From positions 1 to 35,143 of the IMG/VR virus record IMGVR_UViG_3300025732_000134: 35,143 nucleotides of DNA. One strand, 5' to 3'. Both the position numbers and the translations under genes were made by a program. The notes beneath the pieces are model-generated. The model worked only from the letters and a program-made list of their open reading frames with translations. It was not told the DNA's origin and made no database searches. Shown piece after piece: positions 4,370 through 29,424 of the stretch. Source of the stretch: a virus. Position 1 is the first letter of the stretch; every line of letters begins with the position of its first letter.

Positions 4370-4380
4370 TTAGGTTAAAC

Positions 4381-4405
4381 TAAGACCAGTGAACAACTGG
4401 TCTTA
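4381..4405 (+). other. Perfect 10-bp hairpin touching the next start codon
   Basis: TAAGACCAGT (4381-4390) is perfectly complementary to ACTGGTCTTA (4396-4405) across a 5-base loop. It begins 12 bases after the stop of the structural gene and its last base is the A of the following ATG. There is no T-run, so it is not a classical intrinsic terminator. It could mark a processed 3' end, protect the transcript, or control translation of the next gene. Confidence 0.8.
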
Positions 4406-4833
4406 TGTCAACTACAGCAGCAATGCTTTATCAGCACAAAAAAACAGGTGCAAGAGTCAAGATTGTAAGCGAATGGGATAATGGCGATTGGTTCATGGTC
4501 GAAGATCAGGACGGTCGCCTTTATACCGCTTACAAGACTGAGCTTACACCTGATGAAGCTGCCACTAAGACCGTGAAAACGCTTCAAGTGAAAGATAAAG
4601 CTTCTAAAGAGGAGCCGAGGACTTTCCCCCCGGACAACCGTTTAAATATCAATTCAGCTACCGCCCAAATGATCGCTGATCATATCAAGGGTATTGGATT
4701 AAAAACAGCCAGAGAGATTAAAGATCTTCAAATGTCCTTATCGGGTGAAAGGTTTAACAATCTCGAACAGTTAAAACAAATTGGGCGAGTTGACTGGGAA
4801 GCCGTTATTGCCGCTGACCTTATTAGGGTTTAA
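4405..4833 (+). CDS. Helix-hairpin-helix protein, probable head-tail connector or DNA-binding virion protein
   Basis: The 142-residue protein has an N-terminal SH3-like stretch (residues about 8-50, MLYQHKKTGARVKIV to RLYTAYKTEL), a Lys/Glu-rich linker, and a C-terminal helix-hairpin-helix (about 78-140) with LNINSATAQMIADHIKGIG and LKTAREI, as in ComEA-type DNA-binding modules. A second candidate start is Met7 at 4423. No Shine-Dalgarno is present at either; the first ATG is joined to a hairpin. A small HhH protein among head genes could contact packaged DNA at the connector. The domain is visible; the role is inferred. Confidence 0.75.
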   Translation: MSTTAAMLYQHKKTGARVKIVSEWDNGDWFMVEDQDGRLYTAYKTELTPDEAATKTVKTLQVKDKASKEEPRTFPPDNRLNINSATAQMIADHIKGIGLKTAREIKDLQMSLSGERFNNLEQLKQIGRVDWEAVIAADLIRV

Positions 4834-4850
4834 TTACCCATCTCCTTACT

Positions 4851-4877
4851 AAACCCTTGGGAAACCAAGGGTTTTTT
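4851..4877 (+). terminator. Intrinsic terminator after the helix-hairpin-helix gene
   Basis: A 10-bp perfect stem AAACCCTTGG / CCAAGGGTTT with a GAAA tetraloop runs straight into a T-run (4872-4877). It lies 18 bases after the stop at 4833 and is a clear Rho-independent terminator on the plus strand. Confidence 0.9.
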
Positions 4878-4902: not shown

Positions 4903-5571
4903 ATGGCTGGTTTAATTCCAGGGGGACACGTAGTTGATCCCAGCAAAGATATCTATCCAACTTCTGGCGTCCATATAGATCCACGAGTGTACCCTCGTTT
5001 TGGGCCCAATAAAGATAAACCTATCAATCCAAGAAACGCTAAATTTTTATTACAAAATCTTCTTGTTGGCGGTAAACCTGTAGTTGAACAACGCTACGGA
5101 ACTTGGCAGTGGAATTTTCCTATTACCAGTGAGTTTGGATTAAGAAACACAGGCATCCCTGGTGCTAGCACTGATCACAAGGGTATTGATATTGCTGGAA
5201 TGAGGGCCGGCACTCTAATTGCGTATCGAGGTTATGGATCATATAGACCAGGGGAAGGTTATGGTACTTTTAGTGTTACGGATGCTCAAGGCAACCCTTA
5301 TGATCTCCGAGTCTTACATACAACTCCTGGTACTTTTGCCGAAGTAATTGCAGGAACACCTCCTCCAGCTCCTATCCTTCCGCCTTCAGAAGCAGACTTA
5401 GCAAAAGAAGCAGCGGATAAAGAGAAGTTTTTAAAAAACTATATTGAGAAACAGTTTGAACGTGCGGCGTTAAATGAAATGCTTAACAGAGAAAAAAAAG
5501 ATCCTTTTGCAGAATTTCAAGAATTAATGCAAGCCATCCCAATGGGTGTCATGCAAAATCCCCTGGGTTAA
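4903..5571 (+). CDS. M23-like (lysostaphin-fold) virion protein, catalytic site incomplete
   Basis: The 222-residue protein has an M23 endopeptidase-like core at about residues 65-150: ITSEFGLRN, then DHKGIDIAG, which matches the HxxxD zinc motif of the family, then a region ending VLHTTPG. In active M23 enzymes the second motif is HxH; here only the last His is seen (VLH), so one zinc ligand or catalytic His appears missing. The C-terminal third (from about 165) is charged and helical. The gene sits among connector genes, so it may be a structural derivative of a peptidoglycan hydrolase used at the tail or in entry. The fold call is moderate and the activity doubtful. Confidence 0.65.
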   Translation: MAGLIPGGHVVDPSKDIYPTSGVHIDPRVYPRFGPNKDKPINPRNAKFLLQNLLVGGKPVVEQRYGTWQWNFPITSEFGLRNTGIPGASTDHKGIDIAGMRAGTLIAYRGYGSYRPGEGYGTFSVTDAQGNPYDLRVLHTTPGTFAEVIAGTPPPAPILPPSEADLAKEAADKEKFLKNYIEKQFERAALNEMLNREKKDPFAEFQELMQAIPMGVMQNPLG

Positions 5572-8335: not shown

Positions 8336-9115
8336 ATGTCATCAACTTCAACAAACAAACAACCACTGTTGATTGATCGGCCGTTATTTGATTCGGTTCG
8401 AGTAACAACCCAAACTGTTGGCAGTTCTACTGCCAACACGCTTTTTGTTCAAGGCGGCCAGGCTCCATCAATCCTGGTTGATATGGATGCAACTCTGCAA
8501 GAAGACAACAACAATGGCGGCGTTGTTGACTCTATTGCCATCACACGCAATGACTTTTATCGTGGTGCAGATTACACGGTTAACGCGTCAACTTCTGGTA
8601 CTGTTATATCTCTTGTCAGTGGTCAGGTTGTATTTATTTCTTCCACTGGAGTCTTAGGAACTGCTGCAGCAAGCGGTTACGGTTATTACACATACACAGG
8701 TGCAACCACTCTTACAGGCGTCAATACTGCCTTAATTTATTCGGGTGGAACTAGTAGTGGTTTTTCGTACAACGGAGTTGCTTATGGCTATCAACCGGCG
8801 GTGACTTTTGTGTTTTATCACACCCGTGGCACAACAACCCCTATCCCAGCTTCGGGCGATTACCGTGTTTTGTTTGCAAAAACTCTTCCCGCCAACAGCG
8901 GCTCAGTTGATTGTTCTGACTTGATGCCACAACTTGCGGCTCCTGTTGCACAAGCCGGTAACACTACTGGTTTAGGTTCCACTGCACCGCTACGCAACAA
9001 AGGAATTTACCTGGAGCGAGGTGACCGCATTTACGTTGGTGTATTCCCAGATGGACCGAATATTTCTGGCTATACACCAGGTGCTCATGTTGTTGCTCAA
9101 GGTGGCTTTTTCTAA
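8336..9115 (+). CDS. Structural protein, beta-rich, unknown
   Basis: The 259-residue protein (MSSTSTNKQPLLIDRPLFDS) is rich in Ser, Thr, Gly, Ala and Tyr with a beta-rich pattern and no catalytic motif. The C-terminal part has GIYLERGDRIYVGVFPDG, a style seen in virion surface or head proteins of cyanophages. It is followed two bases later by the next structural gene, so the two are likely made together. Head fibre, decoration or tail component are all possible. Confidence 0.72.
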   Translation: MSSTSTNKQPLLIDRPLFDSVRVTTQTVGSSTANTLFVQGGQAPSILVDMDATLQEDNNNGGVVDSIAITRNDFYRGADYTVNASTSGTVISLVSGQVVFISSTGVLGTAAASGYGYYTYTGATTLTGVNTALIYSGGTSSGFSYNGVAYGYQPAVTFVFYHTRGTTTPIPASGDYRVLFAKTLPANSGSVDCSDLMPQLAAPVAQAGNTTGLGSTAPLRNKGIYLERGDRIYVGVFPDGPNISGYTPGAHVVAQGGFF

Positions 9116-14674: not shown

Positions 14675-14688
14675 AAATTATGTATATT

Positions 14689-14710
14689 GGGGATAACAAT
14701 AGTTATCTCC
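14689..14710 (+). other. Hairpin ending directly at the lysozyme start codon
   Basis: GGGGATAAC (14689-14697) pairs with GTTATCTCC (14702-14710) around the loop AATA, nine pairs with one G-T wobble. The next base is the A of ATG 14711. The 3' arm ends in CTCC rather than a ribosome binding site. It may hold the start closed or act as a transcript end. Confidence 0.75.
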
Positions 14711-15370
14711 ATGTCGGATCTTTCGCGTGCTATTAACCTAATTCGTAAATACGAAGGGTTTAACGAGAAAGCATACGCAGATCCACACACTGGCGCAGAG
14801 CCCTACACCATCGGGTTTGGAACCCAGTTTTACCCCGATGGTTCCCCTGTCAAAAAAGGTCAACGCTGCAGCCAAGAGAAAGCACTAGAGTACCTCTTCC
14901 ATGAGGTCAACGTCATTGAGTCCCAGTTACTGCGTCAGAACCTTGGGCTTGATGACAACATGCGCCAAGCCCTGATATCATTTATTCACTCAGTTGGCTG
15001 GGAATCTTTCCTCTACAGTCACATCATTGATTACCTGGAAGTGGAAGATTTTGCCAGTGCCACCACAGAAATGAGCCACTGGATCTTTGATCAAAACCAC
15101 AAGGTTGTTGGTGGTCTCTTGGAACGCAGAAGAGAAGAAACGGGTCTTTTCCTTCGTAACGTGGGCACCAGCCCTTGGGCGTCAACCGAAGTTTTGTTGA
15201 CTGCTTTCCGTAATTACAGTGCTGCTCCCCATGAGGTTCGTGCAATTCGCGCTCTAGAAGAACGCATTAATCCTTATATTCTTTCTGAATTTGCCAATGG
15301 TTTTCGCATTGATGAAGATCCATGGGGGGATTTCACCAACGAGTGCGTTGATCTGATATTTAACAGCTAG
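14711..15370 (+). CDS. Endolysin, T4-type lysozyme (GH24)
   Basis: With the start at ATG 14711 the protein has 219 residues (MSDLSRAINLIRKYEGF). The GH24 catalytic set is visible: Glu15 in KYEGF, Asp24 in AYADP and Thr33 in YTIGFGT, spaced as in phage T4 lysozyme. It cuts the MurNAc-GlcNAc bond of peptidoglycan. No signal peptide is seen, so it would need a holin or another export route. The C-terminal 60 residues (from about 160) extend beyond the compact GH24 core and may be a substrate-binding addition. An upstream TTG at 14687 is possible but would place the start inside the hairpin region. Confidence 0.92.
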   Translation: MSDLSRAINLIRKYEGFNEKAYADPHTGAEPYTIGFGTQFYPDGSPVKKGQRCSQEKALEYLFHEVNVIESQLLRQNLGLDDNMRQALISFIHSVGWESFLYSHIIDYLEVEDFASATTEMSHWIFDQNHKVVGGLLERRREETGLFLRNVGTSPWASTEVLLTAFRNYSAAPHEVRAIRALEERINPYILSEFANGFRIDEDPWGDFTNECVDLIFNS

Positions 15371-23924: not shown

Positions 23925-23933
23925 TTATTGACC

Positions 23934-23964
23934 TGGCCTAGAGTATTTGTATTGCTCTAGGCCA
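23934..23964 (+). other. Perfect 10-bp hairpin just before the lysin start codon
   Basis: TGGCCTAGAG (23934-23943) pairs perfectly with CTCTAGGCCA (23955-23964) around an 11-base loop. It begins 10 bases after the stop at 23924 and ends two bases before ATG 23967. There is no T-run and no ribosome binding site between the hairpin and the start. Confidence 0.8.
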
Positions 23965-23966
23965 AT

Positions 23967-24977
23967 ATGTTAATTAAACTTACAGACGCTGCAAAGTTCT
24001 ATAAGGAAGAAAAGCATCAAATTGATGCTTGGAATTGGCTCCAGGCTCAGGTATCTCCTGATGTTCTGGAGTCATTTGCGTCTAAATACCGTACACTACC
24101 TAAGCCTGTCGTTGAGATCAGCAACACTTGGGATGGTGTCCTTGCCGCAGCTAAAACAGCCGGTGCTAAGTGGCCCGAATGTGTTGCTGCACAGTGGGCA
24201 CTTGAGTCGGGCTGGGGACAACATACATCGGGCAAGAATAATTATTTTGGATTAAAAGGCCCTGGTTCTACAGTCAGTACGCAAGAATTTATTAATAACC
24301 AGTGGATCACTATTAAAGCAGGTTTTCTTGATTTTCCCGATCTTCAAACTTGCGTTTGTTATTTAGTTGAGCGTTGGTATAAAGACTTCGGAAATTATAA
24401 AGGTGTTAACAACGCTGCCAGCAGAAATGAATGTGCTCGTTTTTTGATAAAAGAAAGCTACGCTACAGATCCTGATTATGCAACAAAATTAATTCAAATT
24501 ATGGATCGTCAGCTCCAAAATATTGGAGAGAAAAAAGATTCTAACCCACACAACAATAACTTCAATCCTTGGAGCCCTTTCACATACAAAGTTACTCCTA
24601 ACATTACTTACGGTGAACTTTGTTTAAATCAAGAAGGAAGAAGATTTACCAAACAATATCAATGCGACACAGCAAAAGAACTTTGTTTGTTTCTTGAAAA
24701 AATACGTAAACAGTTTGGCAATAAACCACTAATTATTACAAGCGCTTCTCGTCCTGAACCTATTAATTCGTCTGTGGGCGGCGCTAAAAATAGTGAACAT
24801 ACTTACAATGCAGTATCTAAAGGAGCCATTGATTTTTATGTAGAAGGAGTTGATATCTATGCAGTGCAAGAGTGGTGTGATAAAACTTGGCCGTATTCCT
24901 TGGGCTATGGTGCGCCCAAGGGATTTATACATTTAGGTATTAGAGAAGGAAAACCACATGTACGGTGGGACTACTAA
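23967..24977 (+). CDS. Two-domain lysin: glucosaminidase-like (GH73) plus M15 peptidase
   Basis: The 336-residue protein begins with a short helical part (LTDAAKFYKEEKHQIDAWNW) often seen in phage lysins. Residues about 52-185 form a FlgJ/GH73-type glucosaminidase: AAQWALESGWGQHTSGKNNY, with Glu80 as the likely catalytic acid, and NYFGLKG. After a linker, residues about 205-336 form an M15 (VanY/M15_3-type) peptidase: LIITSASRPEPINSSVGGAK, SEHTYNAVSKGAIDFYV with the His and Asp zinc ligands, and FIHLGIR with the last His. It should cut both glycan and stem peptide of peptidoglycan. It may act at entry or lysis; the T4-type lysozyme at 14711 is a second lysin. Confidence 0.88.
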   Translation: MLIKLTDAAKFYKEEKHQIDAWNWLQAQVSPDVLESFASKYRTLPKPVVEISNTWDGVLAAAKTAGAKWPECVAAQWALESGWGQHTSGKNNYFGLKGPGSTVSTQEFINNQWITIKAGFLDFPDLQTCVCYLVERWYKDFGNYKGVNNAASRNECARFLIKESYATDPDYATKLIQIMDRQLQNIGEKKDSNPHNNNFNPWSPFTYKVTPNITYGELCLNQEGRRFTKQYQCDTAKELCLFLEKIRKQFGNKPLIITSASRPEPINSSVGGAKNSEHTYNAVSKGAIDFYVEGVDIYAVQEWCDKTWPYSLGYGAPKGFIHLGIREGKPHVRWDY

Positions 24978-25140
24978 CGTGAAAAAATATAAAGAGCCGC
25001 GTATACGCGTTAATGTTTGCTGGCAAATTGGAGACAATAAAAAATGCGTGACTTTACCAAAAGAGCACGCATATGAAACAAGAGATTGGGTTGAAAGCCA
25101 AGGAGGAACTATTTTTTGGTTTCAAGCATTAGAAGATTAA
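24958..25140 (+). CDS. Small basic protein after the lysin
   Basis: ATG 24958 has AGAAGGA nine bases upstream and overlaps the lysin end by 20 bases; a GTG at 24979 is the alternative. The 60-residue product (MYGGTTNVKKYKEPRIRVNV) looks like a small beta fold: CWQIGDNKKCVTLPKEHAYE, then WVESQGGTIFWFQALED. Two Cys residues could bind metal or form a bridge. Similar tiny proteins appear in phage genomes without known function. Confidence 0.65.
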   Translation: MYGGTTNVKKYKEPRIRVNVCWQIGDNKKCVTLPKEHAYETRDWVESQGGTIFWFQALED

Positions 25141-25298
25141 CGTTGTTTAGCTTTACCCACTACTAAAGCAAGTGTTTCAATTAGTTTGTACAGTTTTCCA
25201 ACAATTTTATCGTCTGAAGGTGTTGGTGTCATTGCTGTAATAATAGACGCTACTGCATGAATGGCTAATGCCAGCTCAATGTACTTGTTAAAGTCCAT
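25137..25298 (-). CDS. Small conserved-looking phage protein, 53 residues
   Basis: The minus-strand frame from ATG 25298 to the stop at 25137 encodes 53 residues: MDFNKYIELALAIHAVASII, TAMTPTPSDDKIVGKLYKLI, then ETLALVVGKAKQR. It has an amphipathic to hydrophobic first helix, a TPTPxDD turn and a second helix, a layout I recall from small phage proteins found beside lysis genes. It overlaps the end of the plus-strand gene by 4 bases. It is below usual length cutoffs. A holin-like or membrane-associated role is possible but the hydrophobic stretch is short. Confidence 0.72.
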   Translation of the reverse strand: MDFNKYIELALAIHAVASIITAMTPTPSDDKIVGKLYKLIETLALVVGKAKQR

Positions 25299-29040: not shown

Positions 29041-29064
29041 GGCAATCGAGTTACTCTTGATTTA

Positions 29065-29424
29065 CTATACCGAAACAGAAGGAGTTATCGACCGTACCAA
29101 CTCTTTCTCTTCTGCTGTTTTTGCTTTAAGTTTTGTTTTTAAAAACTTAGCCGCTCGATGCGTTTGAGTCGTATCACCACAGGTGTACAAATCAATAGCG
29201 CAATATCCAATCTCTGGCCACGTATGTATTGATGCGTGTGATTCTGACAGTAATGCTAACAACGTCACTCCCTGCGGCTCAAACTTTTCACCAAAAATTC
29301 GTAAGACGTTTGCTTTTGCCATGACGAGAGAAGCCTCAAGCAATCGTTGAAGCTCCTCATAGTCATTAAGAATTCCTGGGTCGCATTCATAAAGATCCAG
29401 GATTAAATGGCGACCATTGTTCAC
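29065..29424 (-). CDS. speD: S-adenosylmethionine decarboxylase proenzyme
   Basis: The 119-residue protein matches bacterial SpeD over its whole length. The self-cleavage site is clear: LLSESHASIHTWPEIGYCAI, with Glu61-Ser62 as the cut that makes the pyruvoyl group on Ser62, His67 nearby, and Cys82 in LYTCGD. It makes decarboxylated SAM for spermidine synthesis. speD is a known cyanophage auxiliary gene. Its ATG overlaps the primase stop (ATGA), so it is translated with the replication gene; polyamines could help neutralise phage DNA. Confidence 0.94.
   Translation of the reverse strand: MNNGRHLILDLYECDPGILNDYEELQRLLEASLVMAKANVLRIFGEKFEPQGVTLLALLSESHASIHTWPEIGYCAIDLYTCGDTTQTHRAAKFLKTKLKAKTAEEKELVRSITPSVSV

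Follow-up and report, generated by a model that had tools for sequence, protein, structure and literature searches.

The 35,143-nt stretch of viral DNA analyzed here (IMG/VR record IMGVR_UViG_3300025732_000134, referred to as the window) encodes two lysins. An earlier note on this DNA had reported that each lysin gene has a hairpin against its start codon and no ribosome binding site, and had argued from this parallel placement for a shared lysis-timing function. This raises the question of what a helix positioned at a start codon does for the gene that it precedes, and whether it is a property of lysin genes as such. The closest cultured match of the lysin is found in Synechococcus phage S-EIV1 (KJ410740, 79 kb, host Synechococcus sp. 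PCCC-A2c), which has the same gene order as the window around both lysins; a megablast search of the window against cultured phages returned no match. The relatives are S-EIV1-type Synechococcus phages and are not T4-like.

Hairpins adjoin the start codons of both lysin genes

The lysin-2 hairpin has the perfect 10-bp stem that had been described, ending two bases ahead of the ATG; its loop is 11 nt long (TATTTGTATTG) (Table 1). The 81-nt region that contains it folds with an energy of -25.2 kcal/mol (z = -4.6), and 0 of 200 shuffled sequences were equally stable. Perfect stems of 10 bp or more that enclose a loop of 3-12 nt occur four times in the whole window (4381-4405, 4851-4874, 8416-8438 and 23934-23964), whereas dinucleotide-shuffled sequences average 0.2. 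Two of the four have a start codon at their end, namely those of lysin 2 and of a gene encoding a small helix-hairpin-helix (HhH) protein. The segment at 4851-4874 is a strong intrinsic terminator located between the HhH gene and position 4903, and it is conserved in the relatives seen. The lysin-1 stem is 9 bp long (14689-14697 paired with 14702-14710) and ends flush on its ATG, so a hairpin does stand against the start codon of both lysins. The assignment of lysin 2 as a GH73-M15 enzyme also holds, as its domain matches have E values of 5e-19 (PF01832) and 3e-16 (PF08291). As to the reported lack of a ribosome binding site, Shine-Dalgarno-like 4-mers occur in only 0-2% of the leaders of the hairpin genes, although a weak AGG is present in the lysin-2 3' arm. 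Convergent with lysin 2, a small ORF on the minus strand (25140-25298) encodes a short, partly hydrophobic product of ~52 aa, a size that would suit a holin.

Table 1. Hairpin leaders and the genes that they precede, in positions of the window.
Feature	Position	Strand	Remarks
TAAACT, putative -10 of HhH gene	4376..4381	+	in 17/17 non-redundant leaders; predicted transcription start ~4388
HhH-gene hairpin, AAGACCAG-TGAACAA-CTGGTCTT	4382..4404	+	flush on ATG 4405; covariation
Small HhH protein, 142 aa (PF12836, below cut-off)	4405..4833	+	
TATATT, putative extended -10 (TGTATATT) of lysin 1	14683..14688	+	predicted transcription start ~14695
Lysin-1 hairpin, GGGGATAAC-AATA-GTTATCTCC	14689..14710	+	abuts ATG 14711; covariation
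Lysin 1, phage lysozyme (PF00959)	14711..15370	+	domain match
Lysin-2 hairpin, 5' arm, TGGCCTAGAG	23934..23943	+	folding, covariation
TAGAGT, putative -10 inside lysin-2 5' arm	23939..23944	+	predicted transcription start ~23951, in the loop
Lysin-2 hairpin, 3' arm, CTCTAGGCCA	23955..23964	+	followed by AT, then ATG 23967; covariation
Lysin 2, glucosaminidase (GH73-type, PF01832) and peptidase M15_3 (PF08291)	23967..24977	+	domain matches
Glycosyltransferase leader, TATAGT (29069-29064) then hairpin AATCAAG/CTCGATT	29044..29069	-	start 29040

The hairpins are conserved and also precede other genes

Single flush hairpins in one genome are weak evidence, since the hairpin score cut-off of 16 is attained at 3.5% of positions drawn at random from the S-EIV1 genome, and the argument therefore rests on conservation. 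For each lysin, 80 homologs were fetched. The cut-off is reached in 45 of 47 distinct lysin-1 leaders, including that of S-EIV1, while for lysin 2 a hairpin at the start codon is present in 28/32 distinct leaders from homologs at least 78% identical, in 5/9 at 70-78% and in 5/7 at 60-70%. The lysin-2 leader of S-EIV1 falls below the cut-off, yet an interrupted version is kept (TAGACT-GGATTC...GAATC-ATG). Within the lysin-2 set, a clade that includes L023, L029 and L035 uses a completely different stem (CTACTATCAG.../...GGTAGTAG) around another hexamer, TAAAAT, and its hairpin still sits flush on a GTG; in L064 the stem is lost or weakened, and a strong Shine-Dalgarno sequence stands in its place. 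The earlier note had raised the prospect of relatives that keep the lysin and lose the stem. Such cases exist, but a strong stem is missing only in a minority of mostly divergent relatives, whereas most retain it.

A survey of 34 gene families from the window, carried out across the relatives fetched, located hairpins no more than two bases from the start codon in 94% of lysin-1 leaders, 59% of lysin-2 leaders, 100% of the 17 leaders of the HhH gene (4405) and 38% of those of the glycosyltransferase (29040, minus strand); most other families have ~0-6%, and families with two or three leaders are uninformative. The 17 HhH leaders are non-redundant, and the share of glycosyltransferase leaders with a hairpin at the start codon is 27-38%. 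Flush hairpins also occur among the 128 genes of S-EIV1, for example before lysin 1, the HhH gene, the terminase large subunit and the glycosyltransferase. The terminase leaders of relatives contain TAGTAT followed by TTCAG...CTGAA, mostly several bases off the start codon, and may represent a weaker case in a shorter form. The proposal of a shared lysis function is thus upheld as regards the placement at both lysins, which is conserved and covarying, but its specificity for lysis is not, given the hairpins of the HhH gene, of about one third of glycosyltransferase leaders and, in shorter form, of the terminase; a function in lysis only was rejected because the same device recurs before these other genes. 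The lysins of the other cyanophages S-CBS1, S-CBS3, S-CBP3, DSL-LC07 and S-SRP01 have no flush hairpin and are closely packed or overlap with the upstream gene. The device is therefore a feature of S-EIV1-type phages rather than of the lysin family in general.

Covariation and G-U bias point to selection on the sense RNA

In the three well-sampled genes, 32, 20 and 12 alignment cells have changes on both sides of the stem, as compared to 11.2, 7.8 and 2.7 in column shuffles, a control that ignores relatedness. When one arm is slid by 1-3 columns, pairing falls to 16-71%. As an independent test, the strand under selection can be read from the G-U and A-C cells: G-U pairs are allowed in the sense RNA only, while an A-C cell corresponds to a G-U pair in the antisense RNA, and over the three genes G-U outnumber A-C cells by 85:10. 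It is thus the sense-strand RNA that selection keeps.

A -10-like hexamer accompanies the 5' arm

In all four hairpin families, a TANNNT hexamer ends 21-23 nt ahead of the start codon. In lysin 1, the HhH gene and the glycosyltransferase it immediately precedes the 5' arm, and in lysin 2 it lies inside that arm. The sequence TGTATATT, TGTATGAT or TGTTTATTAT occurs in 17/17 non-redundant lysin-1 leaders, and the glycosyltransferase leaders L023, L035 and L048 contain TAGAGT in place of TATAGT at the same site. The lysin-2 hairpins carry TAGAGT, TAAAGT or TAAAAT. In 31/31 aligned lysin-2 leaders TARAGT is invariant while the partnering 3' arm varies, and TAGAGT is retained in leaders that have lost the pairing (L057, L066 and L070); the 5' arm of lysin 2 is therefore constrained as a sequence, beyond its role in the stem. 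TANNNT is present in at least 85% of leaders in 7 of 23 families, whereas each of six control patterns reaches 85% in at most one family. It also occurs at similar distances in several families that have no hairpin. No -35 element is evident at the hexamers, and a sigma-70 scan of the window lists no promoter at the sites of the hairpin leaders. By placing the transcription start seven bases past the hexamer, as inferred from standard promoters, it is predicted to lie 16-17 nt before the start codon.

Further leaders in the window (5611, 8336, 11089, 19666, 21724 and 23381) contain -10-like classes (TATAAT, TAGAAT and TAAAATAAGA) with no obvious -35, mostly ~16-27 nt from the start codon, and S-EIV1-type phages may generally have short leaders. 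In the lysin-2 leaders, a TTGAC(C/T) block is conserved five bases 5' of TAGAGT (window 23925-23938; L002-L081), and this region forms a TGACC-TGACC direct repeat. A reading of TTGACC as the -35 of lysin 2 is not supported, as its spacing is 5 nt to TAGAGT and 11-14 nt to hexamers in the loop.

A proposed gate against read-through translation

The conserved -10-like element at the 5' arm, which was absent from the earlier note, is the key to the mechanism that we propose. We estimate a probability of roughly three in four that the hairpins form a read-through gate built into each gene's own promoter, similar to that of T4 gene e; both the transcription start and the translational effect are inferred. 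RNA initiated at upstream promoters would carry both arms and fold into a hairpin flush at the start codon, such that it would be translated poorly. Transcription from the gene's own promoter, whose -10 lies at or in the 5' arm, would instead begin within the hairpin, in its apical portion. The resulting RNA would have a leader of ~16-17 nt from which most of the 5' arm is missing, so that it would be unable to fold and would be translated. Production of each lysin would then depend solely on the firing of its own promoter and would be independent of the strong transcription of the structural genes around it.

The predicted cost of opening the region from -12 to +3 is compatible with this scheme. 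Its median in long leaders is 10.3 kcal/mol for lysin 1, 12.6 for the HhH gene, 5.8 for the glycosyltransferase and 14.4 for lysin 2, and it amounts to 2.1, 1.9, 1.9 and 1.3 kcal/mol, respectively, in RNAs beginning at the predicted start; these low values follow from the choice of start and are no independent proof, because any leader of 16-17 nt folds weakly. Some control leaders fold to a comparable degree (median of up to 6.7 kcal/mol), which makes the glycosyltransferase a weak case. Other observations count against the gate: the hexamers have neither a -35 nor a promoter call in the sigma-70 scan, some relatives have a lysin with a weak hairpin or none, the window copy of the glycosyltransferase hairpin contains an A-C mismatch, and the TTGAC(C/T) block of lysin 2 falls outside the model.

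By analogy to T4 gene e, a role in lysis timing is plausible. The presence of the device before the HhH gene and the glycosyltransferase as well suggests that its general purpose is insulation from read-through. We are evenly divided on a broader proposal, namely that promoter-overlapping hairpins constitute a general insulation code in S-EIV1-type cyanophages, which arose independently of T4 and by which selected genes of long late operons stay silent on read-through RNA and depend for expression on their own start site alone. Such a code would cover both lysins, the HhH protein and the glycosyltransferase, and perhaps the terminase.

Alternative explanations

The conservation and strength of the hairpin by itself would also suit a plain RNA switch, in which the complete hairpin is present on every transcript and is opened late by a phage or host factor, by temperature or by a helicase. 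We regard this as unlikely, as the arms of different genes have no common sequence that one factor could recognize, and a switch gives no reason for a -10-like hexamer at the 5' arm every time; a single shared RNA-binding protein was likewise rejected, as the three stems differ in sequence. The hexamer is also left unaccounted for if the hairpin is an RNA processing site, where an endonuclease would cut read-through RNA and free the start codon, or where the message would be stabilized. The A/U-rich loops of several lysin-2 leaders are consistent with processing, but there is no common cut sequence and the lysin-1 loops are only 4 nt long, and we consider this quite improbable.

A palindrome overlapping the putative -10 and transcription start lies where repressors act, and the repeat could in principle be a DNA operator for a dimeric regulator. 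This is very improbable: within each gene the two arms covary, from one gene to another they differ, the loop length varies from 4 to 13 nt, and the 85 to 10 ratio of G-U to A-C cells is explicable only by sense RNA. The intergenic position would fit an intrinsic terminator or the 3' end of the upstream transcript, and the earlier note had allowed that the stem might act only in this way. We find this barely credible, since no U-tract follows the stems (AUAUGUUAAUU and AUGUCGG do), the lysin hairpins are unlisted on the plus strand in a terminator scan, and the lysin-2 hairpin stays with its gene, flush on the start codon, though the upstream gene varies among relatives. A split ribosome-binding site was rejected because there is no Shine-Dalgarno sequence upstream of the hairpin.

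Comparison with known systems

The read-through gate proposed here closely resembles the regulation of the T4 lysozyme gene e, where the long transcripts made early fold into an inhibitory structure, which reduces the synthesis of lysozyme ~100-fold, while the late promoter lies within the 5' strand of the leader hairpin and late transcripts lack that strand (PMC3014915). Inhibitory leader structures are also found in T4 soc, 49 and I-TevI (PMC3014915). Both systems involve a lysozyme gene and a helix over the initiation region of long transcripts, here predicted and covarying, and the short transcripts predicted here would, like those of T4, lack the 5' strand. However, the leaders of the S-EIV1-type cyanophages contain TATATT, TATGAT, TAAACT, TATAGT or TAGAGT rather than the T4 late promoter TATAAATA, most have no Shine-Dalgarno sequence, the helix is flush on the AUG, the 5' arm coincides with the -10 or with the spacer between -10 and start, and the device is also present at a second lysin, the HhH gene and the glycosyltransferase. 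The T4 gate is experimentally proven, whereas the present one is predicted from sequence. The hairpins would thus work like gene e by analogy and are not a member of the T4 system, because they lack the T4 late promoter and the behavior of their transcripts is only predicted.

Fold-back protection against read-through RNA is also known from the transposase genes of IS10 and IS50, where read-through RNA folds over the start and RNA from the element's own promoter does not, as proposed here. Unlike the phage gate, these are transposons whose repeat derives from the ends of the element. Hairpins just ahead of the start codon are also present in T4 genes 25 and 38, but there they help translation by bringing the upstream Shine-Dalgarno sequence of a split ribosome-binding site close (PMC3014915), whereas the sequence 5' of the hairpins studied here is A/T-rich and -10-like, with no conserved GGAG or AGGA. 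We found no report of such gates in cyanophages in open-access papers. If the gate is real, abundant, little-studied freshwater cyanophages have independently evolved or retained the kind of lysozyme gating described for T4, and apply it to several genes simultaneously. This would reveal how the dose or timing of single genes can be controlled without terminators or repressors in a phage with long read-through transcripts, and would provide a directly testable handle on cyanophage lysis control.

Two further features of S-EIV1 were observed. On the minus strand at 36949, a 12-bp hairpin is located six bases from a start codon, with no obvious -10 in front. The S-EIV1 TerL (L163:24902-27442) is 846 aa long, whereas in most relatives ~1,526 nt suffice to cover its full span; it therefore carries an insert of ~340 aa, which is possibly an intein.
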